The translations under genes were made by a program, and so were the position numbers. From the IMG/VR virus record IMGVR_UViG_3300009537_002640, positions 142,496 through 206,495 of that record: 64,000 nucleotides of DNA; one strand, written 5' to 3'. Under the pieces are notes generated by a model. That model ran no database searches, was not told where the DNA came from, and saw only the letters and a program-made list of their open reading frames with translations. The stretch comes from a virus. Each line of letters starts with the position of its first letter. Position 1 is the first letter of the stretch. Below are positions 17,251 through 64,000 of the stretch, in pieces.

Positions 17251-17763
17251 CTAATCAGTTTCCATTAATTCCTCTTTCTTGTCTTTACGGTCCTTTCCAT
17301 CTATATCGTGATAGTCTAATAAACCATCAACATAATCTTCAGCCTTTGCAGGAGACTCGTCGCGCTTTTTATAATCCACCTGAGACTGAAATGCTTCCAT
17401 TTCTGTTTCTCTATCTAAATATTCTTTTTCCCCTTTATTAGGGTCAACATTGTCAGTGAATTGCTGAAGGAAGTGCACCAGTTCGTGCACCAGATAGTGA
17501 GTAGGATCCTGTCCCTTTTCTACTAGCTTCTTATTAATGTAAATCTTCTTGTCTTTAGTTTTTGCTGATACATCTAAATCAGCAAATTCTACAGGCACAT
17601 CATCTATCTTGGATAGCGGGACATTATACTTGTCAAATTTTTCTTTAACCTCAGGATCAGATTTTATCTTATCTTTCATCTTCTGAACCAGCTTGGTCCA
17701 ATCCGGTCCCGCCCTCTTCGAGATTCTGGTTATTGTCTGGTGTCTCTTCGACAGTTTGCGCAT
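17251..17763 (-). CDS. Zinc metallopeptidase-like protein (HELVH)
   Basis: 170 residues from the ATG at 17763; a GTG at 17772 adds three residues. Residues 93-97 are HELVH inside THYLVHELVHFLQQ, the HExxH zinc-binding and catalytic motif of gluzincin-type peptidases. The downstream ETEMEAFQ could supply the third, glutamate ligand. The C-terminus is a charged Asp/Lys tail. The N-terminus carries two copies of the window's recurrent tag, KLSKRH and RISKRAG. That tag supports this early start although it overlaps the preceding gene by 95 bp. Targets might be host peptidoglycan-associated or virion proteins; unknown. Confidence 0.75.
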   Translation of the reverse strand: MRKLSKRHQTITRISKRAGPDWTKLVQKMKDKIKSDPEVKEKFDKYNVPLSKIDDVPVEFADLDVSAKTKDKKIYINKKLVEKGQDPTHYLVHELVHFLQQFTDNVDPNKGEKEYLDRETEMEAFQSQVDYKKRDESPAKAEDYVDGLLDYHDIDGKDRKDKKEELMETD

Positions 17764-17932
17764 CTTTTTCACCCATCAAGTATAGTTGTCTGCTTTGCTC
17801 TAAGCTAGCTATTCGAGATTGGGCTGCCGCAACTGCTGTCTTTAATCCCAAAATCTCTAACTCTAATTCATCCATTGTTTCTGGTTGGCGATAACCTACA
17901 TATTCTACAAAAACTTTCTCTGGCTTTCTCAT
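17669..17932 (-). CDS. Small coiled-coil protein (87 aa)
   Basis: Residues 18-55 (MDELELEILGLKTAVAAAQ...IASLEQSR) form a predicted coiled coil. The C-terminus is acidic and Asn/Gln-rich. The ATG at 17932 has AAGGAGT 5 nt upstream. The last 95 bp overlap the metallopeptidase gene in another frame, an unusually long overlap here. It resembles small coiled-coil accessory proteins found between fibre and lysis genes; no specific function can be assigned. Confidence 0.65.
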   Translation of the reverse strand: MRKPEKVFVEYVGYRQPETMDELELEILGLKTAVAAAQSRIASLEQSRQLYLMGEKDAQTVEETPDNNQNLEEGGTGLDQAGSEDER

Positions 17933-38934: not shown

Positions 38935-39960
38935 TTAGCCTGCTGCTACATCCTTACGGCCAACTGCTACACCACGTGGGTTGACAATACCGATTCCGAT
39001 ATTTTCGTTCACGACCCAACCTAGCTTGAGCTGCTTGGGCTCATCAGCTGGGAGAACTTCAATATCTTGACGGATTGGCATTACACCAACGAACTCAGGG
39101 TCAGCAACACCGAAGATAGTTCCAACAGGAACAATCTTAGAAACGATGATGTCTGCGCCCCAAAGGTGTGCAAAAAGACCAGTCTGTAGGATTTCACGCT
39201 GAGTGACCATATCTACCTCTCCACCAGTGCCAGCTGCCTGACCACCGCCAGAGCCCCAGTTTAGAATATCGTTGAACTCAACGATGTTCATTAGGAACTT
39301 GGTAGTTACTAGGTCCCAACGGTCTACCTGAACTTTAATCTCAGAGAGATCGCGCTTTAGAAGACCTGCATCCGCGATATCCTGTGCAGTATTCTCGCCA
39401 CCGAGAGAATCATCACCTGCGAAATCCAGAGCTGCGAAGATGTTGGCATCCTCTTGTGCCTGAATTTCCTGACGTGCTTTCTGCTGGGCACGGTCGATGA
39501 CGTTAAATCTACGACGCTTCACCTCAGAAATACGTACAGTTGGGTTTGAAACAATCTCAAACTCAGGGACTGTTACACGGTCTGCGAAGACACGAGACTC
39601 GGGTGCGGAGCCGTTGCTAGAAATAACAACTGCGCTCACATCGATATCACGGTCATACACAGGCAGTGCACCTTGTGGTAGGGGGTCTACGACTAGAACT
39701 CGACGACCGACGCCTTGGTAATCCAAGTTACGACGAATTGGGTTCGCCATAGCCTGACCAAGAGCAACCTTTCCTTCCTGAGTCATAAGAGCACGACGAA
39801 CTAGCTCGTCCTTCTGCTCCTCTGTGAAAGAAGGCTGACCAGCAAGATTCTGGTTAGCCGATTGGTTCTGCTGGATGATAGACGCAAACTTTACAATCTG
39901 CGCTAACGCATCACGACTATCAACTGCGTTCAACTCCCCATGTGTATTAAACATACTCAT
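38935..39960 (-). CDS. Major capsid protein (HK97-fold type)
   Basis: 341 residues from the ATG at 39960, chosen because GGAGGT lies 6 nt upstream. Features of large myovirus-type capsid proteins: a helical N-terminal arm, a central region (RRVLVVDPLPQGALPVYDRD, then VPEFEIVSNPTVRISEVKRR), an AQQKARQEIQAQEDANIFAA spine-like helix, and a C-terminal beta domain ending NENIGIGIVNPRGVAVGRKD. Context agrees: a decoration-like gene immediately upstream, head genes before it and a strong terminator after it. By family knowledge it would form the icosahedral shell. The name rests on my recognition of the pattern, not on a database match. Confidence 0.8.
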   Translation of the reverse strand: MSMFNTHGELNAVDSRDALAQIVKFASIIQQNQSANQNLAGQPSFTEEQKDELVRRALMTQEGKVALGQAMANPIRRNLDYQGVGRRVLVVDPLPQGALPVYDRDIDVSAVVISSNGSAPESRVFADRVTVPEFEIVSNPTVRISEVKRRRFNVIDRAQQKARQEIQAQEDANIFAALDFAGDDSLGGENTAQDIADAGLLKRDLSEIKVQVDRWDLVTTKFLMNIVEFNDILNWGSGGGQAAGTGGEVDMVTQREILQTGLFAHLWGADIIVSKIVPVGTIFGVADPEFVGVMPIRQDIEVLPADEPKQLKLGWVVNENIGIGIVNPRGVAVGRKDVAAG

Positions 39961-40164
39961 GAAAGTACCTCCAAAAATTAACCTACGGCTCTTCTGGTCG
40001 TATATTGGTCCGTCCCATAAGAGTCCATAGAGTATCAATTAGTTTTGATTTTCTTCGTCGGTATAACCGACAGGTGCACAACGAAGTCAAATCAGGTCTT
40101 ACAGAGAATCGAAATGTGGGGCCGGGCAATACCAGCCCCACAATCGTATTTAGCTTAAGCTATG
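39961..40164 (-). promoter_or_regulatory. 204-bp leader of the capsid gene
   Basis: The longest gene-free stretch in the window. It holds an 8-bp hairpin at 40115-40142 and a 5-bp hairpin GTCGG/CCGAC at 40057-40071. A weak TTGACT...TATACC pair and ACTAATTGATAC (an imperfect relative of the candidate promoter element) are also present. The capsid ribosome site lies at its left end. Probably allows separate, high-level capsid expression; which element drives this is unclear. Confidence 0.35.
40115..40142 (-). terminator. Stem-loop between decoration and capsid genes
   Basis: Perfect 8-bp stem TGTGGGGC/GCCCCACA with a 12-nt loop, 23 bp after the stop of 40165-40878. It is followed on the minus strand by UUUCGAUUCUC, too weak a U-tract for efficient termination. 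It may be a partial terminator, an mRNA-stabilising 3' end or a processing site before the capsid leader. Confidence 0.45.
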
Positions 40165-43089: not shown

Positions 43090-43698
43090 TTAGCTCCTTG
43101 GCCCCATATATCCTTGGGGACCATAATTTTTCGGGTCTAGCGATGGGTCTTTTGGAAGAAACTGAAAAGCACCAGCCATCTCTTCACCCTTCTCTCTGGC
43201 ACCCTCTTCATTTCCACTAGTAAACATATCGTAAATTTCGCCTATCTTGGTAAAGCCAAAAGCAAACAGTAGATACTTAGCTGCACGCCAAAGATTCTTT
43301 AGTAGTGCTCGTGGACTTATAACATATTTCCATATGAACTTAAGCACCACACTTGCGAACGCTTCCTTTACTATCTGGTTTTCCATAGAACTAGCGATTT
43401 TGTTTATTCGTTCATCGTTTAGGTTGGCTGTTGCTGGCATTCCAAAAAGCTGTGTAGTAACACCTTGTTCATCGAGCCATCTACCAAAGTCCTCTAACCC
43501 ATATCCGTAATTAGATAAAACTTTATCAAGGGCAGTTATCATCATTCCGCTCCAACCGAAAACAGATGGGGCGTATGATATCAATCTAAAAAGATTTTGC
43601 CCGGGGCCTTGATCGGTTCTCCACATACCTTGAACCATTTTCTTTATGCCTTCTGCAACAAATGCTCGTTTTGAAATATATCGCATAGCTTTGTCCAT
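43090..43698 (-). CDS. Tagged membrane-associated virion candidate (202 aa)
   Basis: Start placed at the ATG at 43698, which overlaps the preceding TAA (TAATG); the open frame extends upstream but would overlap the neighbour by 76 bp. The N-terminus MDKAMRYISKRAFVAEG carries the window's (L/I)SKRA tag. Hydrophobic or amphipathic helices are visible (NLFRLISYAPSVFGWSGMMI; WRAAKYLLFAFGFTKI). The C-terminus (PKDPSLDPKNYGPQGYMGPR) is Pro/Gly-rich. It lies in the set of internal-virion candidates next to the capsid gene. No family recognised. Confidence 0.65.
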   Translation of the reverse strand: MDKAMRYISKRAFVAEGIKKMVQGMWRTDQGPGQNLFRLISYAPSVFGWSGMMITALDKVLSNYGYGLEDFGRWLDEQGVTTQLFGMPATANLNDERINKIASSMENQIVKEAFASVVLKFIWKYVISPRALLKNLWRAAKYLLFAFGFTKIGEIYDMFTSGNEEGAREKGEEMAGAFQFLPKDPSLDPKNYGPQGYMGPRS

Positions 43699-45335
43699 TA
43701 TAGAATCGAATTGCGTCCCTGAAAACGGCCATAGTTCCTCTTTACATAATCTTGTAGCATAGGCATGCTCCAATCAGATGGAGGGGGCAGTCCTCTTGGT
43801 CCCTTAAATACCTGTGACACCAGTCGCACTTGATTCTCTCTACTAAAACCCCTATTAGCTAGCCAAGTTTGTGCCGGTGTTCCATCAATAAACTTGTTAT
43901 TGAGTGCAGCTAAAATTTCTGCACCTGTAGGGTTCCACTTATGAGGCTGCTCTTCAACATCATAGGTTCCGCCACCATACTGAACTCCAGTCTGTCGCTC
44001 TTGTGGAGCTGCACCAGGCTGAGTACTTTGTTGCACTGTCTGTGACAGAGTATTAACCTTTTGGCTTATAGCATTCAATACAGCAGGATTTTTACCAACT
44101 ACCCTATAGTCTGTTTGTGGCACATTCATCCACTGACGCAAACGAGGAGACGAATTCATAAATGTCTCCAGCGCCTTTTGAGTATTTGGTCCATAAATGC
44201 CGTCTTCATTGATTCTGCTTGCGCCAGTACTATATGCCTGGTTAAGATAGTTCAAAGACTGTTGCATGCTTGTTACGGCTGGATTCCTTCTGGACAATTG
44301 TCGCTGAGTCCTCTCTTTCTTAGCCGCTCCAGCTGGCCCCCTAAGAGTAACTTGAGTTCCGTCGCCAAGTGTTAGAGCGCGTTTAGACAACCGCTCCTTA
44401 GAGCTTGCTGTAGTAGCAGCAGTGCCTAAGGCTTTTTCAAACAAGCCATGAAGCATAACTAAACTCTGAACGTTGTTCTTAACATCTTCAAGAGTTGCAC
44501 TCTTTGATGCCAACGCTTCTGCCAAGTTGTATCCTGCTTCTTCGCTCTTATTATCGAATTTAGGAGGTCCGCCAAAGCGCTCAGAAAGCTGGTCATACAT
44601 AGATTTTACTTTCTGCCCAAGCTCAGCAAGGTCCTTATTTAAAGTCTGCCCATATTCCTCGACAGCTTTCTGCATAACGGCCTTTTGTTCAGATGCTGCT
44701 TTTTCTTTTAGCTGTAACATAGCAGTTAGTGTCTTATCAATTGCCTGTTCAGCCTGCTCAGCATCACCAGATATCAAACCACCATAACCCCAATCGGTAA
44801 GTTTTGGCTTCAATTGCGTAGGAAACCACTCCTTAAGGCTAACAAGATACTTTGTAAGTTCTGTTAGAGCATTAAGCTTACCTTTGGTTTGTTGAAGTTT
44901 CTCTTCCTCAGACTCAGGAACATCCTGAACGCCCATAGCCGCCTTAAACTCTTTTAGTTTGCCGGTGACTTTTTCTATCTGAGCTTTGGTTTGTTCGTCC
45001 TTAGGATCTAAGTCCTCAAACCTTTCCACTAAATCATCCAAATTATCATCAGCCAGCTTAGTAGCCTGCCAAACAATAGTAGCTCCAAGAATAAGAGCCA
45101 TTGCCGCCCAGCCTGCTGGTCCTGCAGGAGCAAACATTCCAGCTACTGCAGCGGCTTTACCGGTGACACCAAGAGCTAATGCGGCTTTAGCAGCACCAAT
45201 AACTGCTGCCTCCGTAGCTACATTGCTTAATATAGCTTCGCCCCAGTCAGAACTAGCGGCTTCTTTCACTATAGCAGGGGCCATAGCAATACGCGCATAT
45301 TCCTGCATGATTTCGCTATTTTCAAACTGAGACAT
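43698..45335 (-). CDS. Internal virion/ejection-type protein with peptidoglycan-binding domain (545 aa)
   Basis: Start chosen at the ATG at 45335 with GGAGAG just upstream. Residues 4-17 carry the N-terminal tag (FENSEIMQEYARIA). Residues 36-90 are hydrophobic/Ala-rich (AAVAGMFAPAGPAGWAAMAL, then ILGATIVW), probably membrane-inserting. Residues 95-300 are helical. Residues 316-320 are an internal LSKRA. Residues 350-395 (VTSMQQSLNYLNQAY, then INEDGIYGPNTQKALETF) fit the peptidoglycan-binding type 1 (PF01471) pattern. It would suit a head-packaged protein that crosses the cell wall during DNA entry; that role is inferred. Confidence 0.75.
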   Translation of the reverse strand: MSQFENSEIMQEYARIAMAPAIVKEAASSDWGEAILSNVATEAAVIGAAKAALALGVTGKAAAVAGMFAPAGPAGWAAMALILGATIVWQATKLADDNLDDLVERFEDLDPKDEQTKAQIEKVTGKLKEFKAAMGVQDVPESEEEKLQQTKGKLNALTELTKYLVSLKEWFPTQLKPKLTDWGYGGLISGDAEQAEQAIDKTLTAMLQLKEKAASEQKAVMQKAVEEYGQTLNKDLAELGQKVKSMYDQLSERFGGPPKFDNKSEEAGYNLAEALASKSATLEDVKNNVQSLVMLHGLFEKALGTAATTASSKERLSKRALTLGDGTQVTLRGPAGAAKKERTQRQLSRRNPAVTSMQQSLNYLNQAYSTGASRINEDGIYGPNTQKALETFMNSSPRLRQWMNVPQTDYRVVGKNPAVLNAISQKVNTLSQTVQQSTQPGAAPQERQTGVQYGGGTYDVEEQPHKWNPTGAEILAALNNKFIDGTPAQTWLANRGFSRENQVRLVSQVFKGPRGLPPPSDWSMPMLQDYVKRNYGRFQGRNSIL

Positions 45336-45346
45336 ATAGCTCTCCA

Positions 45347-46969
45347 TTAGATATTGATGAATTGCTTTATTTGATCAGGGGTTAGGCTTTTAACTGTTCC
45401 TGCAAACTCCTGCTCTAATTTGCCCATTGCAGCTTCTGGGGTAAAGAAACGAATCATAGATTTATAAGATTCTCTAGCCCTAGTACGCAAAGCTTGTTCT
45501 AATTCTGGTGCTCGGCGAAGAGGAAGTCTAGGAAATCTTTTTTGAAACGTCTGAAGCATCAACTGCTCTGCCGCTTGTGGACTCGGACCCTGTGGTTGAG
45601 CCTCCCCCGGCGCCGTCTCTTCTTTCTTTGCTGTTCCAGCACCCTGATTCTGTACTGCATCAAATATAGCTCTAAAGCCAGCCTTACTCTTTACGGCTGC
45701 CCATGCATCTGGATACTTTTGGCGTAACACGTTAGCAAGCTGCCTATCAAAAGGTTGATTTGCTTTCGGCTGTAAGCCCACCATAGTTCTAAGTCGATTT
45801 TGCAGCTGAGTTAGCCTCATCTTTTTCTTATCTTGAGTAGTAGCAGTACCAGATTCATCGAGATTAATTTCTCCTGCTCCAGCAGCCTCCCAACCCTCTG
45901 GGGTTGTAGGAAACCCTGTTTGAGGGTCAACCTTCTGCTGAGTAGTTGCTACTCCAGAATCTTGCTGTTGTCTGCGTTGAGCTAACATTTGTTGTTCTGC
46001 TTGGAGATTAGGAGACCATTGTGCAACCATTGGCTGCACAACACTAGGTAGGTCAGGAGCATTTTTGCCCCATCGAGATTGAAGTTTTTGTAGTGCACTC
46101 ATTGCTTCAGTCAAAGTAGGCATTGAGGTTCCTTGCCACTCACGAATTACCATAGGCTTATTGAATCTCCCACCCAAATCAGCTTGGTTTAGAGCATCCA
46201 ATACCTGCTTCTTAAATTGTTGTGCCGCAGGACTCGCAGCAACCTTTACTTTTTTTTTTAACAGTGAGTCAACACGGTCAGCCGCCTTAACGTACCCAAG
46301 CTTATCCAGTCGGTCAGCTAGATTTAGAAGAGCTGCGTAAGTTCCCTTGGGCATGCTTAACGCAACCTCTACATCCTTCTTTTGCTGCTCGACGATGGTC
46401 TCTACCAAATTCTCATCAGTTTTGCTGTGAGTAAGTTCGGTCCTAGTGCCACCACCCGGATGAGCCTTATCTACTAGCTGTTCGCCAGTCTCGCCAGATA
46501 CATCATAAAGCTTTTCTTCTGCGGTTTTCATATTCTCCATCTCTGCGGATTGTTGTTTGGTTAGGTCCAACTCAGGAAGTTTGGCGTGGGTAAGAGGCGT
46601 AACCCAAGCGTTTGTTACTTCTGTGTGAAACTTTTGAGCTGCAGCCTGTACTTCTGGATTATTAGCGTATGCTTTGGTCCAATGAGCAACTACGGCGTCA
46701 CGAATTCGACCCAAAAATAAGCCAAGCCTCTGATTAGGAATCTTGCCATAGTATTTGGCATGAAACTTATTCATAGCCTGAGTAGCATCCATAAATGGAT
46801 TCTTTGAGCGCATGAGCTGATTAATGGTTTGTCTCATCTCATTAGCAGCTGGACCAGCTTCTTTCAACAGCTCCTCATCTGAAGCTTGTTTGACTAAGCC
46901 CTTGTTAGCAGCAATGTTTGCAAACTCTCTCATCACTTCGCTATCATCAAAATTGTAATTGTGTCGCAT
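45347..46969 (-). CDS. Tagged head-region protein with helical-hairpin module (540 aa)
   Basis: N-terminal tag FDDSEVMREFANIA at residues 7-20. Residues 168-198 hold KAHPGGGTRTELTHSKTD and LVETIVEQQKK. Residues 214-238 are a copy of the shared hairpin (LNLADRLDKLGYVKAADRVD). After an A10 homopolymer encoding KKK, the rest is Gln/Pro-rich and helical with several repeated QxxFxxRxPRLP- or LRxMVGLQPK-like segments. No catalytic motif. Possibly a scaffold or inner-core protein; the conserved N-terminal half suggests targeting to the prohead. Confidence 0.7.
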   Translation of the reverse strand: MRHNYNFDDSEVMREFANIAANKGLVKQASDEELLKEAGPAANEMRQTINQLMRSKNPFMDATQAMNKFHAKYYGKIPNQRLGLFLGRIRDAVVAHWTKAYANNPEVQAAAQKFHTEVTNAWVTPLTHAKLPELDLTKQQSAEMENMKTAEEKLYDVSGETGEQLVDKAHPGGGTRTELTHSKTDENLVETIVEQQKKDVEVALSMPKGTYAALLNLADRLDKLGYVKAADRVDSLLKKKVKVAASPAAQQFKKQVLDALNQADLGGRFNKPMVIREWQGTSMPTLTEAMSALQKLQSRWGKNAPDLPSVVQPMVAQWSPNLQAEQQMLAQRRQQQDSGVATTQQKVDPQTGFPTTPEGWEAAGAGEINLDESGTATTQDKKKMRLTQLQNRLRTMVGLQPKANQPFDRQLANVLRQKYPDAWAAVKSKAGFRAIFDAVQNQGAGTAKKEETAPGEAQPQGPSPQAAEQLMLQTFQKRFPRLPLRRAPELEQALRTRARESYKSMIRFFTPEAAMGKLEQEFAGTVKSLTPDQIKQFINI

Positions 46970-50760: not shown

Positions 50761-53700
50761 TTAGCGCCAATTAAGCTGTGCCAACTGCTCATTTAGGCTT
50801 GGGGCATTAACTGGTTCTGGACTTGCGGTAACAGTCATTGATTGACCGGCACCATCAGCTCCTACACGGGGTAGGGAACCGCCCTTCCTAGAATTGTAGT
50901 TAGCTACTACACGCTTATTTGACTCAAAAGCTGCGTCATCAAAGTTCATCAGCTGGTCAACGTATCCCTCAAGGGATGCCTGAGTAGAAGCGATTAGCCC
51001 CTTCTCCTGAGCCTGGAGACCTACTGCATACGCTCTGCGTAGCTTGGTCTTGTACTCTCCGTTGTCAGCTTCCTTCTTCTTAGAAGCAAACTCTTTGCTC
51101 AAGTCTGCACCGAAGCTACCAGTGTCAGGACCTTGTGCCCAGAACTTCTTCCAGTAAGAAGCTGCTGCTGAGTCAACCTTACCCTCAGCCACCAACCTAT
51201 CAACATCTTCAGCCTTGAGTGCGCCCTTAACAATTGCCTCTTGAATGAGAGCAGCTGCCTCACGCACATTTCTTGGGCCAGATTCAGCGACATCTCGCAT
51301 TACATCGTGAATCTCAGAAATGGTTTCAACATGAGCACCGTCTGTCTTGGTATGAGTTAGCTCAGTTGTAGTACCCTTTCCGCCTGGATGAGCCTCAAAG
51401 TACTCTTTCTGAGTTGCATTCTCTGCCTTGCCCAAATCCAACTCATACTTTCCAAGGATGTCACCTGCTTGAGCAAGAAGAGCATCACGCTCAGCCTTGC
51501 GAGCAGCCATTACAGAATCTAGAGCTTCGTCAACTGCGAAGTCACCATCATCTGCCATCATTGCCCCACCACATGACTCATCATGTGCATGGTCCTCGGC
51601 ACACATTGGTGCATCTGCATCATCCTCGTCTTTCTTCTTCTTTTTCTCATCCTTCTCATATTCATCTTCTTCATCCTCGTCGGACTCTTTATCCTTTGCG
51701 AGGTCAGGATGCGTAAGCTCGCCCTCTGGACCTTTTTCTTGCTTCTCTTCCTGCAGAAGCTTCATTAGAGAAGCCTCATCAGCATCAGTTAGAGCATAGT
51801 CCATCTCGTCGCCCATACCCATCATGTCCATATCACCCATAGCCTTAGCTAGAAGTGCAGCACGATTTTGAGCACGGACCCTTAGAGCTTGTTCTAGAAG
51901 TTCAGCAGCCTTCTTCTCGGCGTCAGACTTTTCGGACTTCTTATCTTCCTTCTCGTCCTCATCATCTTCATCCTCGTCTTTCTTCTTTTTCTTAGCTGCT
52001 TCTTTCTTCTTCTTATCCTCTTTGTCATCCTCATCTTTGTCTTTCTTGTCTGCCTTTTCGTCTTCCTTATCATCGTCTTTCTTCTTGGCAGCTTCTTTTT
52101 TCTTATCTTTCTTCTTCTTATCCTCTTTATCATCCTCATCTTCATCGTCGTCTTTCTTCTTCTTAGCCAAGACAACTTCAGCTTGAGCAAGTAGAGTCTC
52201 GCTGTCGGCTAGAGCTTGAACAGCTGCACTAAGAACACGGCCCTTAGTTTCACCATCAAGGTCTTCTGCCTTATCAAGAGCTTCGCTCACAAGAGCTAGC
52301 TCATCAGCAGACTCATCTAGGAGGGAGTGAACCTCCATAGCCTCATCGCGGAACGCTAGAGTTTGTTCCATTGGACTTTCGGAACCACCTTCGCCTTCCT
52401 CGTCGACCTTAACTTCAATGTCGACTAGTTTCTCACCACCCTCATCAACAGCCTTGCGGATGTCGTCTAGAGCAGTTTCAATCTTAGTGAGGCCAGCTTC
52501 TACCTTGCCCTTGAGATCAGGCTCATCTTCCTTCTTCTCTGGTGCAGGTGCTTCACCCTCAGGAGCTGCAGGAGCAGCTTCTGGTGCAGGTGCGTCTCCG
52601 CCTGGAGCTGGTGCTCCACCTGCTAGAGGGTCAGCTCCACCGGGAGCCAAAGGATCTTGAGCACCCTTTAGGAGATATGAAACCTCATCAAAGCCTTCGG
52701 TGCGGATATGGCGAATAATATCCTTTCCGTAGTCCTTGGAGCTTAGATAATCCCAGTTCTCATCAAGCTGGTCATCAAAGATTTCCTTGCCGGTTGCAGT
52801 TAGAATCAACTTGTCACCAGCATACACATCCCAACGGGATGCATCCTTGACTAGATTGCCTTGGTCATCAGCGACCTTGGTAAACTTTGCACGAAGGCGG
52901 GCACGCAACCACATCTTCTTTACTTTCTCGTCGCCAGGAACCATACCATCGGTACCGCCCATGTCGTAGATGCCTTGTAGGTGCTTATCTTCGTTATCGC
53001 GGATTTTGTCCGCTTCCTCTTTTGGATACTTTTCCTTGCCAGGGGTTGGCTCATTGATACCACCACCGCCTAGCCAGTAAGCGCGACGTCGTAGTCTACG
53101 CTCCTGTAGTTGAGCTTCAGTTAGCTTTCCATCTTCAGCTGCATCCTTGTCAGTCTTCTGAACCTGCTCTAGCAGTGCTTGACGGCGTAGTTTACGCTCC
53201 TCAATCTCTGCTTTCTTCTTGTCGGCTTTACCGCCGCCAAGATTGCGGGTTTCCCACGTTCTTCCTTCATCGCCTGGGTGAAGACCTTCGGATCCAGTTT
53301 CTAATGGCTCGCCAACCATTTGCTTATCTTCAGTGTCACGGATTTTATCCGCTTCTTCCTTCTCATACTTAGGCTTACCTGGAGTAGGCTCATTAATGCC
53401 GCCTCCACCTAGCCAATATGCTCGACGTGCTTTGGCACGGGCACGTAATCTCGCAGAATTCATATTGTCGTCCTCCTTAGAGACTGTTTTTAACTCATTG
53501 AATGATTTACTTAGTTTTTCTATCTTGGATCGAAGGAGACGTATTTCATTAAAAAGAACACCCAGGTTTCCGTCTCCCTCTAGACTAGCCAATCTCTGAC
53601 TAGGCTCGACTGATATTGGTGTAGTGGTAGTGCGATACGTACCTTCACCGTTGCCAGCCATTGGACTTACACTTGGCTCTGACCCACCACCAGTAGCTGG

Positions 53701-54789
53701 TAAAGCAGGAGGAGCCTCGTCTGTTTCAGTATTGCCGATGCCGAATTTGGCAGCTAATACCTCTTCGATTTTTTCTTTTAGAGCAGGGTTGGTTACAGCC
53801 TTCAATGCCGCGACCAATTCACCCATATCCATATTTTCTAGACCATGTATGGGTGAGCTTTTAGCCTCTACTCTTTTAGTCTTTTGTTCGAGTTTCATTA
53901 GCGTGTTAAGCTTAGTTTGCATTTCGTTGATGTTGTCAGCAAGCGCTTGTAGTTCAGTTGGGTTTACACAGGCACCAACTAGCAACTCGTCAATACGCTC
54001 TTGTTTTTGTTCAGCGTAATTCTGCAAGCTTGCGACTATTTGTCGGATTTTTGCCAGACCATCAGCGCCATTAACTACGAGGCTTAGCTCGATTGGGCTT
54101 AGGTCTAGGTTCACTTCGCCATAATTTGTGCGTCCACGAACATGATGACAATAGTCTCGTTCGGTTCTCGCTACATGGCCACATTCGGTGCATACGGAGC
54201 GACCGACTGCCGTACCCATTGATACGCAATTAGCATATCCGGTTTCTACTTTGCGTGCTAGGTCAGGGTAATTCTTCCTATCTAACGCAAATAAAGCATG
54301 AACCCTCTTAAACTTAGGGTCATAGTAAGTATCGATTATTATTCCACGAATGCCGTCTACGCTATCACTCTTGTGGTCTTTGCATAGTGGCTTTCCTACC
54401 CAGTTCTTGTAGGCTTTTAGCAGCTCATCTTCAGGAAAAATGTCACCATTAGCATTCTTGTAGGGCTTTAGTCCATCAGGAGATTCCCATTTCACAGAGT
54501 GCTCGTTGCCCTTTACCTTAATAGGCACGAAAGACCCCTTAGCTGGCTTACCATTAGAAGCTAGAACGGGCTCACCTGTATCCTGGTCTATCAAACATGC
54601 TTCAGCAGCATGCATCATAATAGCGTGGCCATAAAGAAAGTCACTAGCTCTTGGAGCAATCCTCTTTAGCTTCTTGGCTAACTTAACAAACCTTTTGGCG
54701 ATTTGTTCGTCCGCTAGAGCTTCTTTCGGTGTCATCAGATTTGTGTCTGGTGAAAAGCTTAGATTCTCTCCGATTTTCCTAATAGCCAT
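50761..54789 (-). CDS. Prohead protease-scaffold-like protein (1342 aa)
   Basis: Residues 90-250 look like a phage prohead maturation protease: KPLCKDHKSDSVDGIRGIII (H139), LARKVETGYANCVSMG (S190) and a conserved end NLDLSPIELSLVVNGADGLA. Between them is a zinc-type cluster, C200-x2-C203-G-H...Y-C214-H-H. Residues 260-440 are coiled coil. Residues 456-489 and 569-603 are a direct repeat (RAYWLGGGGINEPTPGK). Residues 715-755 are Ala/Pro-rich, 876-958 Lys/Asp-rich, and 1132-1158 carry the EAHPGG/TELTH/VE motif. Scaffold-like helices close the protein. Fusion of protease and scaffold would fit head assembly; protease identity is by pattern only. ATG with GAGGAG upstream. Confidence 0.72.
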   Translation of the reverse strand: MAIRKIGENLSFSPDTNLMTPKEALADEQIAKRFVKLAKKLKRIAPRASDFLYGHAIMMHAAEACLIDQDTGEPVLASNGKPAKGSFVPIKVKGNEHSVKWESPDGLKPYKNANGDIFPEDELLKAYKNWVGKPLCKDHKSDSVDGIRGIIIDTYYDPKFKRVHALFALDRKNYPDLARKVETGYANCVSMGTAVGRSVCTECGHVARTERDYCHHVRGRTNYGEVNLDLSPIELSLVVNGADGLAKIRQIVASLQNYAEQKQERIDELLVGACVNPTELQALADNINEMQTKLNTLMKLEQKTKRVEAKSSPIHGLENMDMGELVAALKAVTNPALKEKIEEVLAAKFGIGNTETDEAPPALPATGGGSEPSVSPMAGNGEGTYRTTTTPISVEPSQRLASLEGDGNLGVLFNEIRLLRSKIEKLSKSFNELKTVSKEDDNMNSARLRARAKARRAYWLGGGGINEPTPGKPKYEKEEADKIRDTEDKQMVGEPLETGSEGLHPGDEGRTWETRNLGGGKADKKKAEIEERKLRRQALLEQVQKTDKDAAEDGKLTEAQLQERRLRRRAYWLGGGGINEPTPGKEKYPKEEADKIRDNEDKHLQGIYDMGGTDGMVPGDEKVKKMWLRARLRAKFTKVADDQGNLVKDASRWDVYAGDKLILTATGKEIFDDQLDENWDYLSSKDYGKDIIRHIRTEGFDEVSYLLKGAQDPLAPGGADPLAGGAPAPGGDAPAPEAAPAAPEGEAPAPEKKEDEPDLKGKVEAGLTKIETALDDIRKAVDEGGEKLVDIEVKVDEEGEGGSESPMEQTLAFRDEAMEVHSLLDESADELALVSEALDKAEDLDGETKGRVLSAAVQALADSETLLAQAEVVLAKKKKDDDEDEDDKEDKKKKDKKKEAAKKKDDDKEDEKADKKDKDEDDKEDKKKKEAAKKKKKDEDEDDEDEKEDKKSEKSDAEKKAAELLEQALRVRAQNRAALLAKAMGDMDMMGMGDEMDYALTDADEASLMKLLQEEKQEKGPEGELTHPDLAKDKESDEDEEDEYEKDEKKKKKDEDDADAPMCAEDHAHDESCGGAMMADDGDFAVDEALDSVMAARKAERDALLAQAGDILGKYELDLGKAENATQKEYFEAHPGGKGTTTELTHTKTDGAHVETISEIHDVMRDVAESGPRNVREAAALIQEAIVKGALKAEDVDRLVAEGKVDSAAASYWKKFWAQGPDTGSFGADLSKEFASKKKEADNGEYKTKLRRAYAVGLQAQEKGLIASTQASLEGYVDQLMNFDDAAFESNKRVVANYNSRKGGSLPRVGADGAGQSMTVTASPEPVNAPSLNEQLAQLNWR
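51916..52164 (-). repeat. Low-complexity Lys/Asp/Glu coding tract
   Basis: Encodes residues 876-958 of the protease/scaffold-like protein, almost only K, D and E (KKDDDKEDEKADKKDKDEDD). The DNA is a run of CTTCTT/ATC triplets on the plus strand and is open in more than one frame, which is a by-product of composition. Probably a flexible charged linker or nucleic-acid mimic. Confidence 0.8.
52981..53424 (-). repeat. Direct protein repeat RAYWLGGGGINEPTPGK
   Basis: Two copies, encoded at 53323-53424 and 52981-53085, 113 residues apart in the same protein. Each continues with K.KY.KEEADKIRD.EDK. The DNA copies differ at several wobble positions, so conservation is at protein level. Possibly a repeated binding or cleavage segment in the scaffold part. 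Confidence 0.75.
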
Positions 54790-57553: not shown

Positions 57554-58260
57554 TTTCCAACTAGTCGCAAAAATCTCTCTATCTTGTGTGATGGAATGCA
57601 TATCCCTAAATGGTCAAATGCTGTATGCCCCATGGAAAGTAGACCTATAACCTCTCCGCTATCATTGAATACAGGGCTACCGGAGTTTCCTCCTGCTGCC
57701 GCTGCCGATATGATAAGCCTATCTCGGATTAATGGAGTAACATCTTTTGACGGATTGATAACCACACCAGGCTCTTCATACATCATAAACCCCAATGGTG
57801 CGCCCACTAACATCACTTTGTCTTTTCGCTTCACTGTACTATAGTCAGCGAACTTAACAGGCTTTAGATTATGCTTTGGTAGTCTCATCAAACAAAGGTC
57901 GTTTGATTCATCCATCTCCAGCATCTCTACGCCGTTTCGTTGTATCTCTACATCTTCTAGTAGATACGTTAACTTGATATTGTCTTCTAGTATGTCCATT
58001 ACTTGAAGCTCAAATATAGCAACACAGACATGACCAGCTGTTATTAAATGGTCTTCATCATAAGCAAAAGCAGTTCCGTTGATCTCGTTAACACTTTTTC
58101 TCGCTTTTACTGAAACCATGCCCACTGAGCGGGCAAGGTTGGTTGGCAAATCCTCTCTTCTAGCTTCCTCTTGCTGAGTAACTACTACTGGCTCGGGAGC
58201 ATGTACATTTATAGAACACCCCGTAAGCATTAACACTAGTAGCACAAAGATGCGTTTCAT
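57550..58260 (-). CDS. Lipoprotein trypsin-like serine protease
   Basis: 236 residues. The N-terminus MKRIFVLLVLMLTGCS is a lipoprotein signal with lipobox LTGC (C15), so the mature protein should be lipid-anchored outside the cytoplasm. The catalytic triad is visible: H77 in LITAGHVC, D121 in SNDLCLMRL and S193 in GGNSGSPVF. This is the chymotrypsin/DegP-like protease fold without PDZ domains. Start and stop overlap both neighbours (ATGA). A secreted lipoprotein protease in a structural phage block is unusual. It could act on cell-surface proteins, possibly in superinfection exclusion; that role is a guess. Confidence 0.9.
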   Translation of the reverse strand: MKRIFVLLVLMLTGCSINVHAPEPVVVTQQEEARREDLPTNLARSVGMVSVKARKSVNEINGTAFAYDEDHLITAGHVCVAIFELQVMDILEDNIKLTYLLEDVEIQRNGVEMLEMDESNDLCLMRLPKHNLKPVKFADYSTVKRKDKVMLVGAPLGFMMYEEPGVVINPSKDVTPLIRDRLIISAAAAGGNSGSPVFNDSGEVIGLLSMGHTAFDHLGICIPSHKIERFLRLVGK

Positions 58261-58886
58261 TCGTCTGAGGAACGCTCTTTGGTTTTTGCCATTGTATCTA
58301 ACATGTCATCAAACTGACTAGCTAGTTTGGTGTCTCCTTGCTCATCTAAAAAGCTTGCAATTGAAACCAGGTCCTCTGGTTGCATCCTTAAGCCTACTCG
58401 CTGAGCCAGGTCAGCCACTACTTCATCAATAGCCCTGGCCTCGTCATAAAGACCATCCTTATCTAGCTTGTAAGCAACTTTGAATAATTTAGCTAACATG
58501 GAATCCCTCCTTAAACTAGATTCTTTTTCTAACTCCTTCTGAAGCTCAATTTCCTTCTTCAGCAAGAATGATAGACGTTTTGCCTCTTCTTCTGTTATAT
58601 CATCTCTTTCCTTTAGGCGATGTATGTTCTCTGCAACCTCATCGAGTTGCTTTCGTGTTCGTTCTTTGGATGCCTTCTTTTCTGGAACTCGGTCCCGTTT
58701 AGATATTTGCTTTCTTTTCTTTTCAGTGAGATTATGAAACCATATATCTCCTATAGTGGCAGCTATCTGTTCCTCAGAGTACTCAGGAGAGTTTTTCTTT
58801 ATCTCCTTTTTCATCTTATCAAACCACTTCTTAGGTGGGCGTTGTTTCTTTTGAGATTTTTCTTTTGCAATTACCCGTTGAGTCAT
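58257..58886 (-). CDS. Protein with two helical hairpins (209 aa)
   Basis: Start at the ATG at 58886 (MTQRVIAKEK) with AAGGAG upstream. An upstream Met is in frame but would run through the preceding gene. Residues 15-60 (PKKWFDKMKKEIKKNSPEYS, then EEQIAATIGDIWFHNL) resemble a motif common in phage structural proteins (xYSxEQ...A.xIW). An ISKRD variant of the LSKRA tag follows. Two hairpins close the protein: LFKVAYKLDKDGLYDEARAI and LVSIASFLDEQGDTKLASQF. Function unknown. Confidence 0.68.
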   Translation of the reverse strand: MTQRVIAKEKSQKKQRPPKKWFDKMKKEIKKNSPEYSEEQIAATIGDIWFHNLTEKKRKQISKRDRVPEKKASKERTRKQLDEVAENIHRLKERDDITEEEAKRLSFLLKKEIELQKELEKESSLRRDSMLAKLFKVAYKLDKDGLYDEARAIDEVVADLAQRVGLRMQPEDLVSIASFLDEQGDTKLASQFDDMLDTMAKTKERSSDE

Positions 58887-58897
58887 TTGAAAGCTCC

Positions 58898-59218
58898 TTA
58901 TACAATATCTCGTGTCTTTCCGTTTCGTGGACGGCCATAGTGAACAGTAGAGGTGGTGCTGTCGCTTAGGCGGAAGCCAGAACCTACTTCCCAAAACATT
59001 TTGACAAAATCTTCGCTTATGTAAAACTCATTACCTTTATCGTTCCTAAGCTTTAGAATACCACAGTCTTCATCGTAATCTATAGGGGTAGCGATAACGA
59101 TTGTGTAGGACTGTGCATCACCATCAGCATAAGATAGCCACTCAGAATCCAGGTCGATAAAAAGCTCTAACTTCTTGTTAAGAAAGTTAGTAGCTATGAA
59201 TTTGCCATTTTTTGCCAT
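58898..59218 (-). CDS. Unrecognised small protein (106 aa)
   Basis: Beta-rich (KLELFIDLDSEWLSYADGDA, then YTIVIATPIDYDEDCGILKL, then FYISEDFVKMFWEVGSG). ATG with AGAGGAT upstream. It lies between the RelE-like gene and a hairpin-containing gene. No motif recognised. Confidence 0.6.
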   Translation of the reverse strand: MAKNGKFIATNFLNKKLELFIDLDSEWLSYADGDAQSYTIVIATPIDYDEDCGILKLRNDKGNEFYISEDFVKMFWEVGSGFRLSDSTTSTVHYGRPRNGKTRDIV

Positions 59219-59230
59219 TTTAATCCTCTA

Positions 59231-59629
59231 TTAAGTATTGTATCGGGCTTTTCCACGAGTACCAACATATTTTAGTCGTATATGTCTATTGGACGCATCA
59301 ACTTCCCAAATTGCCGCATAAGCTGATCTTCCGCCTGTTAAATGACAATGAAAGAGTCCAGAAGATAATAGTTTACTAAAGTTAGGCCATTTATACAGGT
59401 ATGGACTTTTTTTCAGATCCGTAATAAGATTATGTGCAGTTTCTTGAATCCGCTTGGGCAATTTCGAAATCCCCTTTAATACTGACTTCGGAATATCCAC
59501 AGTCCATTCTTTTGCAGTTTCTGGGTCGGAAGAGTATGAAATTAATATCTCATCTATTTGATCAGCAATATCATAATATCCTAGTTTGTCTAGTCTATTA
59601 GCCACATTGCACAGTGTTTTCAAAAACAT
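59231..59629 (-). CDS. RelE-like toxin-fold protein with N-terminal hairpin (132 aa)
   Basis: Residues 1-28 (LCNVANRLDKLGYYDIADQI) are a copy of the shared hairpin. Residues 45-132 fit the RelE/ParE mRNA-interferase-like fold: LPKRIQETAHNLITDLKKSP, then KLLSSGLFHCHLTGGRSAYA, then IRLKYVGTRGKARY, where a YVGTH-type end is usual. No antitoxin gene is adjacent. RelE proteins cleave mRNA on ribosomes. Here the fused hairpin suggests association with virion proteins, so it may be delivered or structural; inference. It overlaps the upstream gene by 32 bp and has GGAGGGG upstream. Confidence 0.7.
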   Translation of the reverse strand: MFLKTLCNVANRLDKLGYYDIADQIDEILISYSSDPETAKEWTVDIPKSVLKGISKLPKRIQETAHNLITDLKKSPYLYKWPNFSKLLSSGLFHCHLTGGRSAYAAIWEVDASNRHIRLKYVGTRGKARYNT

Positions 59630-62600
59630 TATTCCCCTCCATTTCCCTGTATAGCTCTAGTCGTCCCGCTCGTTTTGACAAAGCTTTTGGTTTAGAGCTG
59701 GCAAATCTAGAATCCCTTTTGAGTTTAGCAACAGAATCATAAAACATTACCATCTCGTATGGAACGTCCAGTACGTTTCTATTATCCTCTATTCGTATGC
59801 TCTTATGTGGAGGCATCTTTTCAAGAACATTCTGTATTGTCTTCAAGTAGCTGTCTGAAAGTGCACCAGGAACATCAAAGGTAGAAAACATATCCATTTT
59901 AGCAACCCTCATCCAACCCTTAGATAATGCATCCTCATAAGTAGGTTCTTCGTCCGGACCAAAGTAACCAAAAAACTCTGGATGGTCCTTTATAAAGAGT
60001 ATATGTCCATTAGGCGCATCATAGAGCTTGCCATCCGGAGAAAACCACCAGGCATTGTAATCTGCTCGCTTAGATAGTGATTTCTTACCAAATGGAATAC
60101 GCTTCTTATTTCCACAGCTCCATACTTGAACATGGTTAGCTGTCCAAGAACCACTTGGTACTTCGCCATCGAACTTCTCTTTAGGTGGTTCCATGTATTC
60201 AAGTGTCACGTGAGGTTTGTAGGATGGAAAATGATCATCAACCTCTACGCCTGCTTCAATCAAAGCTTTTTTCAGTGCCTTGTGCAACTTATGTAACTCT
60301 TTGGACACCACAGCCATCTTAGCAATCTTACAATTATCAGAATGCTTGGTTGCAGGAAAGTAAGTCGGCTTCTTATCTAGTTCTAACTTTATAGGGCTAA
60401 AGTCCTTGATAACATCACGTACCACGCCATACACAGTCTCCTGCTTTTTCTCAGGCACATCTCCTATGTACAATACTGTTACATGAGTGGCGCTATCGTC
60501 GTGTTCGCCTAAAGAGGGAAATTGCTTAGACATGTCTTTTGGCAGAAGTATAAACACACCAGCACCATGTTTTCTGTCCTTTTTCTTCTCGTCTCTTTTA
60601 GAAAGCTTCTTTACGCCATCCCTAATTGATAGTGATTTCTTGCTTACCATTTCCTCTGCCCACTCTGGCAGTTCAAGCTCCATCTTATTAGGGTCTTTTA
60701 TGTTGCGTGCATTATTGGCGCTCTCTATGTAGTCAGGATAGTCCTTGTCCAAACCTAAGTCAAAGAAGGAATCAGGGTTGGTATCTACTAATTGAACTAT
60801 TGCGCCGCGACCAAGCTCAGGGAACTTATGATGTAAGTGATAGTAGAAGAATGCACGTGCATCTTGCTGAGACAAAGCCTCAGCTGCAGCTTCTAGTAAC
60901 TCCTTAAACTCATCTTCTTCGCGCTCATGATACTTGAATACAAAATAGAACTTGGCATTGTCCTCTAACATGTTTTTCAATGCAAGAGCCTCTTCCTCTG
61001 GGCATTCTTTATGTAGCCCGCGATAGAAGAATGCATCAGGGTCGTTCTCTGCTAATTGTTTAGCTTCGTTGTCGCTAACATCGTGAATATCGTGCTCTGG
61101 CTCTTCCTCGTCTCTGTGTCTAAAGATAGGAGCCTTCTCAAACCAGTCACCCATCTCATCATCTTCGCCATGACCCATGTCTTCGTCATTAAGCTCATTG
61201 TTGATTTCAAATATAAGGTCTGGCACAGTTTGATTGTGTGCTATTTTGAAAGCATCAGCAAACTTGCTAACTATTTCATTAGGCACACCAGATGCCACCA
61301 TGTCTTCATACAGATACGGAGCTATGGTTATTTGGTCATAGTACTCTGGCTCTGCATAAGCTCTACCCAAATACCTCTGCTTGGCACTCGTTAAAGCCTG
61401 TGGGTCGAACTTAGCTTCGTATATGTTGACATGAACAGCATTATTTACCGGCTCAATTTTAGCCGTCATTCTCACCGGGACATCTTTGTCTCCTGACAAT
61501 ACCTTTACCGCTCTAGCTATAGCATTTAGGTCTGCTCCAGAAACATCAAATGCTGTTCCCTTAAGGTGTGCTGGATGTTTCTCTGGCACTTTAGGCGGGC
61601 CAACTATGTAGCGAAATTGCTTAGTCAGAATCCTGGCCTTTTGTGCAGGGTCAGTTACAGTAGGGTAGTATATGTTAGCACGATATCTTTTCCACGCATT
61701 TTCAATGATTTTAGTCTGGTCTTCTAGTGTGCGAGAGCCAGAAGTTAAACGTGCCCCAGGTGGTAAAAATGGGCTTAGCATTGCCCATGCACTTAGTATA
61801 GTTTCATTAATCTTAGCCCTAGGAGAAATATTTAGTGCTTTCCTCTGATCCTCAGATAACTGCACTCCTCCCTCCTCTTTAGGAACAACACTTACAGATG
61901 GAGAAAGTTTCTCTTTCATTTCCCTAACTCTCTCTGTATGCTGCTCGGTTAGCGCCCTAACAGATAGTGATTGGCGCTTAACCATACGAGGCTGTTGTTT
62001 TTGATAAAGAGCGGCAACGAAATCTTTCATAGGAGGCATGACAACACTGCTGCCCAAAACTACATGAATAGCGTTATTGGCTGGCTCCACCAAAGAGCTT
62101 ATAACCTGAATAGAGCCAGGGAACGCTGCAGCAACCTCCATAAGGGTCTTATTAATGGCCCTAAGATTACTTCCAGTAATATCAAATGCTACACCTTCCT
62201 GATGTTCAGACTCGCCAACGAAAGCTATATCTGGTACCTGTACACCCTTAGGAGACTTATTCCTAATATAGCTTACCATTTGATTGAGGCGCCTCTTCTC
62301 TCTGCGATTAAAATCCTTGTCGTTTACGGCCTTCCAATACATTACTCTCAACTCTTGGTCTGTTATCCCAAGCTCTTTAGAGAAAGTAGTATGATAGACA
62401 CCCTGGTTTCGCTTCCACTCGCCAGGCTTACCAGCGTAACTTCTCCAGTACTCCAAAACTATCTTGGCCTGTTCACCTGCGCCACGATAAGCACTACTAA
62501 GGTATGTATTGTTTGGCATAAACGGAGCTATTATTCTCCATGCGCGTTCAATGCTTGGGGTTAACGTCGCGGACTCGTACACATTAGTGACGTTTTTATT

Positions 62601-63470
62601 AACGTCTACCAGTTGTGCATAGTTCTCCCATCGAGACGGGTCAGTTACCGGCGCGTTTACATCTACAGGTGGAGTAGGAGTATGCTTAATGGTGCTTACA
62701 GGAAGCTCTTCTTCCTCCATATATGATTGCGCTCGTATGCTAAAAGCCTTCTTTTCCTTTTTCTCTTCTTTACCTTCGTGCTTTTCTACAAGTTCAGGGT
62801 CAAGATACTGATTCTTGAGAGTAGAGGCTTTGTGACCAACTATATCTGCCACCTCCTCTAGTGCCTCTTTAAAATCCTTCTTCTTTAACATTTCCTTCAT
62901 AAGACGATTGGCGTGAAACCCTCGCAAATCTTTAGCGCTGATATCAAATGGTTTCAGATATCTATTAACGGCACGATCCCAAATCTTCTTACCATCGATT
63001 TCAAATATGAAGTCATCAGCCTTTTTACCCTTCATAAGGTCTCTGATAGCCTTAATAACCTCATTATTTTCAAGCACAACGTTTTGTTCCACTTCACCTT
63101 TTCCAGGAAAATCAAAAGTCATTTTCCCTGAGCCGCCCTTAACGTGCTTTACTTTAAGAGTAGATGCTCCGTAGGTTCCTTCACGAGCAGATTCCTCATT
63201 ACCAATGCGCATAGCTGTCTCATCCATAATTCCAACTATGGCTGCAATAGCTTTGGTTCGTTCATCATCGGACTTTAGGTCTTCGCGATACTGCTTACGC
63301 ACCTTATCAAGCTCTTTTTCCAACTTCTTGAGCTTATCTTTCTTCTCTTCCCAGCGCTTTTCAACATGCTTCTCGTCGTATACCCACACGTATCCCTTAT
63401 CGGTCTTCTTCTTTTCCTTGTAAGCCGGTTTGTCAGAGGTAACTTTTGCTCGTTTACTTAGCAGGTTCAT
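59598..63470 (-). CDS. Multidomain protein: topoisomerase IB-like, two M15-like, 2H phosphoesterase
   Basis: 1290 residues. Domain 1 (about 15-235) is type IB topoisomerase/tyrosine recombinase-like. R88 (MRIGNEES), K124 (FPGKGEV), R183 (KDLRGFHAN), H213 (VGHKAST) and Y222 (NQYLDP) occur in the right order; the R88-K124 (36) and H213-Y222 (9) spacings match poxvirus topoisomerase. Domains 2 (300-475) and 3 (550-685) resemble D-Ala-D-Ala peptidases (SEHQEGVAFDITG...NNAIHV; HLKGTAFDVSG...NNAVHV), with H, D and H ligands but no usual ExxH. Residues 800-920 hold three FF..(G/H)L repeats. Domain 4 (about 970-1120) has two HxT motifs (H996, H1087). An LS(K/I/V)R(A/D) tag stands at nearly every boundary. 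Probably a virion protein. Confidence 0.78.
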   Translation of the reverse strand: MNLLSKRAKVTSDKPAYKEKKKTDKGYVWVYDEKHVEKRWEEKKDKLKKLEKELDKVRKQYREDLKSDDERTKAIAAIVGIMDETAMRIGNEESAREGTYGASTLKVKHVKGGSGKMTFDFPGKGEVEQNVVLENNEVIKAIRDLMKGKKADDFIFEIDGKKIWDRAVNRYLKPFDISAKDLRGFHANRLMKEMLKKKDFKEALEEVADIVGHKASTLKNQYLDPELVEKHEGKEEKKEKKAFSIRAQSYMEEEELPVSTIKHTPTPPVDVNAPVTDPSRWENYAQLVDVNKNVTNVYESATLTPSIERAWRIIAPFMPNNTYLSSAYRGAGEQAKIVLEYWRSYAGKPGEWKRNQGVYHTTFSKELGITDQELRVMYWKAVNDKDFNRREKRRLNQMVSYIRNKSPKGVQVPDIAFVGESEHQEGVAFDITGSNLRAINKTLMEVAAAFPGSIQVISSLVEPANNAIHVVLGSSVVMPPMKDFVAALYQKQQPRMVKRQSLSVRALTEQHTERVREMKEKLSPSVSVVPKEEGGVQLSEDQRKALNISPRAKINETILSAWAMLSPFLPPGARLTSGSRTLEDQTKIIENAWKRYRANIYYPTVTDPAQKARILTKQFRYIVGPPKVPEKHPAHLKGTAFDVSGADLNAIARAVKVLSGDKDVPVRMTAKIEPVNNAVHVNIYEAKFDPQALTSAKQRYLGRAYAEPEYYDQITIAPYLYEDMVASGVPNEIVSKFADAFKIAHNQTVPDLIFEINNELNDEDMGHGEDDEMGDWFEKAPIFRHRDEEEPEHDIHDVSDNEAKQLAENDPDAFFYRGLHKECPEEEALALKNMLEDNAKFYFVFKYHEREEDEFKELLEAAAEALSQQDARAFFYYHLHHKFPELGRGAIVQLVDTNPDSFFDLGLDKDYPDYIESANNARNIKDPNKMELELPEWAEEMVSKKSLSIRDGVKKLSKRDEKKKDRKHGAGVFILLPKDMSKQFPSLGEHDDSATHVTVLYIGDVPEKKQETVYGVVRDVIKDFSPIKLELDKKPTYFPATKHSDNCKIAKMAVVSKELHKLHKALKKALIEAGVEVDDHFPSYKPHVTLEYMEPPKEKFDGEVPSGSWTANHVQVWSCGNKKRIPFGKKSLSKRADYNAWWFSPDGKLYDAPNGHILFIKDHPEFFGYFGPDEEPTYEDALSKGWMRVAKMDMFSTFDVPGALSDSYLKTIQNVLEKMPPHKSIRIEDNRNVLDVPYEMVMFYDSVAKLKRDSRFASSKPKALSKRAGRLELYREMEGNNVFENTVQCG

Positions 63471-63763: not shown

Positions 63764-64000
63764 TTATACTGGTGGAGGACCACCAGCTCCTCCGCCACCT
63801 AGACCACCGCCACCTGGTGGAGGGCCACCCATGCCTCCGCCTGAACCGCCTCCTGGGCCTCCCATAGGTGGCATTGGCGGACCACCGCCTCCACCACCAC
63901 CTAATGGTGGTGGGCCACCCATACCGCCACCAGGACCGCCCATTCCACCTGGGCCTCCTGGCATTGCTCCAGGAATACCAGACTCTTCGGCTCCTGGAGT
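63764..64000 (-). CDS. C-terminal part of a Gly/Pro/Met-rich protein (partial)
   Basis: Only the last 78 codons are inside the window; the gene enters from the right edge. The visible part is low complexity, GGPGGMGGP-type, ending GGAGGPPPV. The segment before it (TPGAEESGIPGA) is acidic, so the frame clearly continues beyond the window. A Gly/Pro-rich tail at this position, upstream of protease and capsid genes, would fit a portal protein end, but nothing in the visible part proves it. Confidence 0.6.
   Translation of the reverse strand, partial: TPGAEESGIPGAMPGGPGGMGGPGGGMGGPPPLGGGGGGGPPMPPMGGPGGGSGGGMGGPPPGGGGLGGGGAGGPPPV

Follow-up and report, generated by a model that had tools for sequence, protein, structure and literature searches.

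We identified a large modular protein encoded near the terminus of a 206,495 base pair virus record in IMG/VR (IMGVR_UViG_3300009537_002640). The stretch analysed, hereafter the window, comprises 64,000 nucleotides (positions 142,496 to 206,495 of that record). The gene lies on its minus strand, where 1290 codons are open without a break, as the initial annotation of this DNA had indicated. The encoded chain joins a topoisomerase IB (TopIB), two M15/VanY-like units, a 2H phosphoesterase and two further modules. A short peptide, [LIF]S[KILV]R[A/D], recurs at the module joints, with seven copies in the 1290 amino acids (aa) that the initial annotation had missed. We propose, with a probability of about 0.6, that this is a head-packaged cargo polyprotein of a large tailed phage, which would be cut at or near the R-A bond of LSxRA into separate, ejected enzymes.

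A repeated peptide at module joints

Homologues of the protein in the window genome (G0) were gathered by sequence (L002, also referred to as G1, L040, L041 and G2), and L053, L055 and L057 were reached via the portal gene. All relatives are metagenomic contigs, several of them partial. A strict form of the motif, defined after inspection of G0 and G1, occurs 47 times in nine related open reading frames (ORFs; 14,125 aa in all) against 0.58 expected and a maximum of 4 in 1000 residue shuffles; 33 of the 47 lie in ORFs other than those of G0 and G1. None of the 47 copies falls within a Pfam envelope, where 11.9 would be expected (P about 1e-6). The rest of the G0 and G1 genomes shows little excess of the motif (8 vs 4.3 expected and 4 vs 2.6 expected), and controls with identical letters at shifted spacing were near expectation in the polyproteins.

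The codons that encode the motif vary, with serine specified by both TCN and AGY and arginine by a mixture of codons, and thus the peptide itself is under selection. Owing to this diversity, the window contains no exact DNA pattern for LSKRA, and a joint signal at the level of DNA was ruled out on the same grounds.

The motif is tied to what follows it. All TopIB (7/7), W (5/5; characterized by WWxSPDGxLY), 2H (5/5) and CCA-type (4/4) modules start right after the motif or after a version that differs from it at one or two residues (ISKEA, LSKCA, SQRCA or ISKRL), irrespective of the module that precedes. Tandem copies 8-11 residues apart are present in the window protein (947/956), L041 (969/980) and L053 (1915/1926). 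In L057, 13 strict motifs are distributed across two consecutive ORFs, the last of them two residues short of the C-terminus. The structural model has low confidence (predicted local distance difference test, pLDDT) at the joint that links the two M15 domains of the window protein. The features of the protein and its gene neighbourhood are collected in Table 1.

Table 1. Coordinates in the window of the modules, joint motifs and head-cassette genes discussed in the text.
Feature	Coordinates	Strand	Remarks
Whole ORF, 1290-aa modular polyvalent protein/putative polyprotein	59598..63470	-	single uninterrupted reading frame
Joint motif LSKRA, residues 4-8, N-terminus	63447..63461	-	
TopIB module, residues 9-242; R88, K124, R183, H213, Y222	62745..63446	-	Pfam, PDB phmmer, homologues
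Joint motif FSIRA, residues 243-247	62730..62744	-	
M15/VanY-like module 1, about residues 285-495; H423, D430, H469	61986..62618	-	VanY Pfam, conservation, Foldseek; moderate support
Joint motif LSVRA, residues 502-506	61953..61967	-	low-confidence linker of model
M15/VanY-like module 2, about residues 540-700; H635, D642, E673, H680	61371..61853	-	conservation, Foldseek; moderate support
Conserved helical module, about residues 755-940	60651..61208	-	62-71% identical in relatives
Joint motif LSIRD, residues 947-951, first of tandem pair	60618..60632	-	
Joint motif LSKRD, residues 956-960, second of tandem pair	60591..60605	-	pair also in L041, L053
2H phosphoesterase module, about residues 968-1125; H996xT, H1087xT	60096..60569	-	Pfam, Foldseek
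Joint motif LSKRA, residues 1132-1136	60063..60077	-	
W module (WWxSPDGxLY), residues 1137-1255	59706..60062	-	also G1 (two copies), L057 (two copies)
Joint motif LSKRA, residues 1264-1268, near C-terminus	59667..59681	-	
Prohead (head maturation) protease fused to long scaffold-like region	50761..54789	-	PHROG head maturation protease 1.3e-15; alignment
Head-cassette protein, LSKRA at residue 320 directly ahead of peptidoglycan-binding-like domain	43698..45347	-	also in G1, G2
Head-cassette protein, likely start MRYISKRAFVA	43090..43773	-	
Major capsid protein	38935..40038	-	PHROG 1.2e-78
Small HELVH zincin-like protein, start MRKLSKRH...ITRISKRAG	17251..17772	-	candidate alternative processing peptidase

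Enzyme modules

The N-terminal module is strongly predicted to be a topoisomerase IB. Pfam PF01028 matches residues 41-242 (E 7.5e-31), and R88, K124 and R183 align with catalytic positions of human and archaeal TopIB in a phmmer alignment to PDB sequences. H213 and Y222 complete the pentad with an H-x8-Y spacing of the vaccinia type. The full R-K-R-H-Y set, which the initial annotation had read from the sequence, is kept in 11/11 phage homologues, with identity down to 26%. In two independent lines, LR745208 and L050, a TopIB adjoins the portal and LSKRA joints are absent.

The 2H phosphoesterase is also strongly supported. PF13563 (2'-5' RNA ligase/2H family) matches residues 989-1118 (E 3.5e-10), and the HVT motifs at 996 and 1087 are retained in every relative that carries the domain. 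Foldseek matched the model to drCPDase (E 1.3e-8) and LigT (E 5.8e-7) with probability 1.00. The assignment is strong, and the two HxT motifs on which it had first been made are borne out.

The two central units likely adopt an M15 fold, with moderate support. The zinc ligands H/D/H of the pattern SxHxxGxAxD...H are conserved in both copies across three homologues; the Gly of SxHxxGxAxD is lost in some relatives, and E673 of the second copy is invariant in the three. The first seven PDB matches to the AlphaFold2 model (pLDDT 64) were VanY or VanXY. The Foldseek probability reached 0.97 but E was 0.04, and PF02557 (VanY) was found only in the first copy, at residues 326-438, with a weak score (E 0.0021, 18.3 bits vs a curated cut-off of 25). 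Thus the ligands of the two DD-peptidase-like domains described initially hold, and the fold is less firmly placed. With that reservation for the M15 units, the domain assignments uphold the mixture of DNA, cell-wall and RNA or nucleotide chemistry first noted in this chain.

Two modules had not been listed previously, the helical module and the W module. The AlphaFold2 models of the protein were weak (pLDDT 64 and 54), and no fold could be assigned to either module.

Module shuffling among relatives

Relatives reorder and swap modules while the joint motif stays. A zincin module precedes TopIB at the N-terminus in L040 and lies at the C-terminus in L041. The G1 protein has as extra modules a CCA-type nucleotidyltransferase with an HD domain, a 2H, two W modules and a LigD 3'-phosphoesterase, and that of G2 contains a LigD primase-polymerase-like module, a 2H, a zincin and a LigD phosphoesterase. 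The exchanged modules include LigD_N, PolyA_pol/HD, LigD Prim-Pol and ART-like domains. Ku, which would complete an end-joining kit of the LigD type, was not found in four records, which are partial.

Three further features of the relatives were observed. The CCA-nucleotidyltransferase of L057 is split over two ORFs by a short out-of-frame stretch with a TAATG overlap (15010-15060), through a frameshift, a split gene or a sequencing error. The G1 portal gene appears to hold two intein-like insertions (L002:5345-9586), and the G1 major capsid gene consists of three parts separated by stops, a pattern that introns would give (G001, 89188-92467).

Head-gene setting and motif-bearing neighbours

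The gene lies among head genes, in agreement with the neighbourhood described initially. The portal gene (C-terminus at 63764-64000) is followed by a small ORF and the 1290-aa gene, and then by the prohead protease with its scaffold-like tail and the major capsid protein. The order of portal, small ORF and polyprotein is shared by L041, L053, L055 and L057, and was also found in L002 from its ORF list. A search with the portal over 84,980 prokaryote species genomes returned no relative and hence no host link. The protease search led to a more distant clade (L034-L037) without such a polyprotein in the stretch examined.

Small proteins encoded on their own in the head cassette also begin with the motif, including MALSIRHMAG in L041, MKPISLRHKIV in G1 and MRYISKRAFVA in the window. 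G0, G1 and G2 each encode a small HELxH protein. In G1, an ATP-dependent-ligase-like protein (L002:1318-2532) has PLSLRH at residue 90, between its N-terminal domain and its ligase domain; the same N-terminal domain and motif are fused to a different small domain in L041 and L040.

Within the structural proteins, L-R-x-R-A sites are conserved in the scaffold region of the prohead protease protein, which has conserved SARLRARAKARRAYW and KLRRAY sites, and DEL[VI]RRALMT is conserved near the N-terminus of the major capsid protein. A site of the form L-x-x-R-A common to the polyprotein joints and to the scaffold and major capsid protein is suggested by these matches, and no more than suggested.

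A second recurrent element, a 21-residue helical hairpin (LxxLAxxLDxxGxxxEAxxID), is shared by many small proteins of the head cassette, in which it is often N-terminal. It was counted 5 times in G0, 9 in G1, 7 in G2 and 3 in L041, with none expected by shuffling. All matches in G0 are within the head cassette (45347-46969, 49098-50486, 54793-55590, 56401-57177 and 58257-58994), and the element is also found in the head cassettes of L002, L043 and L041. It is possibly another prohead-targeting or scaffold-binding element. By eye, the hairpin was also recognized at the N-terminus of the product of 59231-59629, ahead of a weak RelE-like toxin domain (PHROG 0.0034); this ORF overlaps the end of the polyprotein gene. 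The head cassette further includes a trypsin-like protease with a lipoprotein signal at 57550-58260 (Trypsin_2, E 4.8e-15).

Proposed processing and alternative explanations

The initial annotation envisaged one packaged protein that could act on the cell wall and then, after entry, on DNA or RNA. Packaging with a role after entry is the generally accepted proposal for proteins of this class. The chain probably does not act as one protein, however: LSxRA joints that recur at the module borders point to a polyprotein that is cut. We propose that the enzyme modules are translated as a single chain from the gene between those for the portal and the prohead protease, and that this chain would be carried into the prohead. 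Cleavage at or beside the R-A bond of [LI]S[KIV]RA, which marks each module start, would separate the modules, and these would be ejected along with the phage DNA. After entry, each released piece may act on a target of its own: cross-links in peptidoglycan for the M15 units, torsion in the incoming DNA for TopIB and, for the 2H unit, cyclic or 2'-5' phosphates on signalling nucleotides or at RNA ends. For the cutting, the conserved sites in its scaffold region and in the capsid protein make the prohead protease the prime candidate. This link is suggestive only, because the corresponding enzymes of T4, phiKZ and SPN3US cut after Glu and some joints lack Arg.

Several points weigh against this proposal. 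Both cleavage and virion location are predictions from sequence. In T4, phiKZ and SPN3US, the known enzymes of this type cleave behind Glu (A-x-E in SPN3US, PMC10052503) rather than Arg, which makes the choice of the prohead protease a guess. In a few module starts (ISKLA, ISKEA, LSRLA and LSKCA), L, E or C occupies the Arg position or one next to it, and so the scissile bond may not follow Arg. Other head proteins show a modest excess of L-x-x-R-A (9 vs 4.0 expected). L040 has an internal GGAG-N5-ATG ahead of its TopIB module, and the motif might be left over, as a tag for capsid targeting, from genes that were once separate.

Cleavage might instead be carried out by another peptidase, either a zincin (as a module of some of the polyproteins, or as the small 17251-17772 protein) or the trypsin-like protein 57550-58260. 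Zincin modules are present in L040, L041 and G2, the small HELxH protein itself bears the motif, and a trypsin-like enzyme would suit Arg at P1; zincin processing of polyvalent proteins is also proposed by Iyer et al. (PMC5512222). The G0 polyprotein, however, has no zincin module, the trypsin-like protein bears a signal for a lipoprotein and was absent from those parts of the relatives' head cassettes that were examined, and among the candidates only the prohead protease is known to work inside proheads. We therefore take another peptidase to be possible, if rather unlikely.

Alternatively, the protein may be an ordinary polyvalent protein, packaged and injected whole, in which LSKRA is a capsid- or scaffold-docking tag multiplied by gene fusion. 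The occurrence of the motif at the N-terminus of separate head proteins fits this explanation, as does the start-like site inside the L040 gene, which would be expected after a recent fusion. There are also precedents, as P1 DarB is targeted via a short N-terminal signal and the N4 virion RNA polymerase is packaged uncut. However, a single targeting tag should suffice per chain rather than one per module, and tandem copies, or a copy two residues from the C-terminus, would be useless as N-terminal signals. Together with the low-confidence joint between the M15 domains, these copies fit cut sites better than docking tags, and we regard uncut packaging as doubtful. Docking and cutting overlap, since the targeting sequence of T4 is also its cut site, and both may hold.

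It is very improbable that the motif has no function as a peptide and instead denotes places where translation starts internally or DNA recombines. The ATG of L040, with its GGAG, precedes a TopIB module, and a recombination site could drive module shuffling. Most motifs, though, have no ATG just upstream, and the free variation of their codons, including both families of serine codons, rules out a conserved site in the DNA as well as a signal in the RNA, which largely refutes this explanation. An artefact (a metagenome chimera or low-complexity repeats) can practically be dismissed, even though every sequence is a metagenomic contig, because the architecture and motif recur with the same head-gene order in several independent contigs from different samples.

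Implications

To explain how polyvalent head proteins deliver many activities at once, and whether they are cut, earlier proposals have turned to embedded peptidases. The module-bound peptide described here provides a testable cut site and a guide to the true borders of modules, and would help to name the cargo of uncultured large phages. The cargo seen among the relatives (TopIB, LigD phosphoesterase, primase-polymerase, CCA-adding enzyme, 2H and, in one relative, a tagged ATP ligase) resembles a kit, brought in at entry, for the repair of DNA ends and tRNA. If the proposed cargo polyprotein is real, a protein fused behind LSKRA could be loaded into such heads, as has been done with the T4 and P1 signals. 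We consider the chances even that tailed phages more generally carry cargo polyproteins of exchangeable enzymes, each with an LSxRA cut-and-load tag and cut in the prohead by the phage's own maturation protease, and that other phage groups do likewise with a joint peptide of their own, of which L050 and Rctr197k may offer hints.

Comparison with known systems

The proposed polyprotein resembles those of RNA viruses, in which short, recurring cut motifs separate several enzymes that are made as a single chain. It differs in that it belongs to a tailed double-stranded DNA phage, carries cargo rather than replication proteins and is cut by prediction, and the two have no homology.

Among phages, a short N-terminal peptide serves as both entry ticket and cut site, as proposed here, in the T4 internal proteins, which are cleaved by gp21, and in giant-phage maturation (phiKZ; SPN3US gp245, PMC10052503). 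In systems of the T4 and SPN3US type, scaffold and capsid proteins share the cut site with the ejected head proteins. The known prohead-protease motifs have Glu at P1 (L/I-x-E; A-x-E), unlike LSxRA, and cuts in SPN3US mostly take off N-terminal propeptides instead of separating joints among several enzymes. Phage P1 DarB and DdrB are alike in being large defence proteins that are packaged and carry a capsid signal at the N-terminus, and DdrB is proteolytically processed prior to packaging; their domains are different, and the portion of that study considered here (PMC9024508) reports no recurring joint motif or module shuffling.

TopIB with an intact pentad is also found in the head cassettes of Xanthomonas phage PhiXhv-15, LR745208, L050 and L069/L070. 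Its partners and order are different there, and LSKRA joints are absent except for an N-terminal MLLSRRA or MILSRRV in L069/L070. The L050 gene (7130-12427) encodes a 1765-aa protein after the portal with the reverse order, an N-terminal 2H-like domain and then TopIB; [KR]VA[ST] may take the place of LSKRA at its joints. In the more distant L069/L070 group, TopIB is fused to an M23 peptidase (E 9.8e-26 in L069) right after the portal (L069:11889-13211; L070:12069-13370), so that a cell-wall peptidase and TopIB have been paired independently. A 2039-aa polyvalent protein of Virus Rctr197k_173 (L011:14778-20897) has two InPase domains, a ParB-like domain, DUF7178 and a 2H; the peptide [LV]TAAD[VL] recurs in it and may serve as a joint of its own.

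The closest known counterparts are the polyvalent proteins, described by Iyer et al. 2017 (PMC5512222) as large multidomain chains of disparate enzymes, often in head-gene contexts, that are predicted to be packaged and injected. The domains catalogued there include 2H, DD-peptidase, zincin, ART and InPase. The window protein has at least two domains of disparate predicted activity and is encoded among head genes, with the portal upstream and the protease and major capsid protein downstream, and we predict that it belongs to, or works like, these phage-head proteins. It contains no embedded zincin or assemblin-like peptidase, which are common but not universal among them. Processing into units has been proposed for polyvalent proteins and is attributed there to zincins embedded in the chain or to an assemblin-like peptidase at the C-terminus, whereas the window chain has module-bound LSxRA joints. 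The claim that no phage protein of this layout had been described is only partly right. The kind is known, with 2H and DD-peptidase domains both listed, but TopIB, LigD and CCA modules and a repeated joint peptide are not mentioned in the portion of the catalogue referred to. What is new is the repeated pentapeptide at the module joints of such head proteins.

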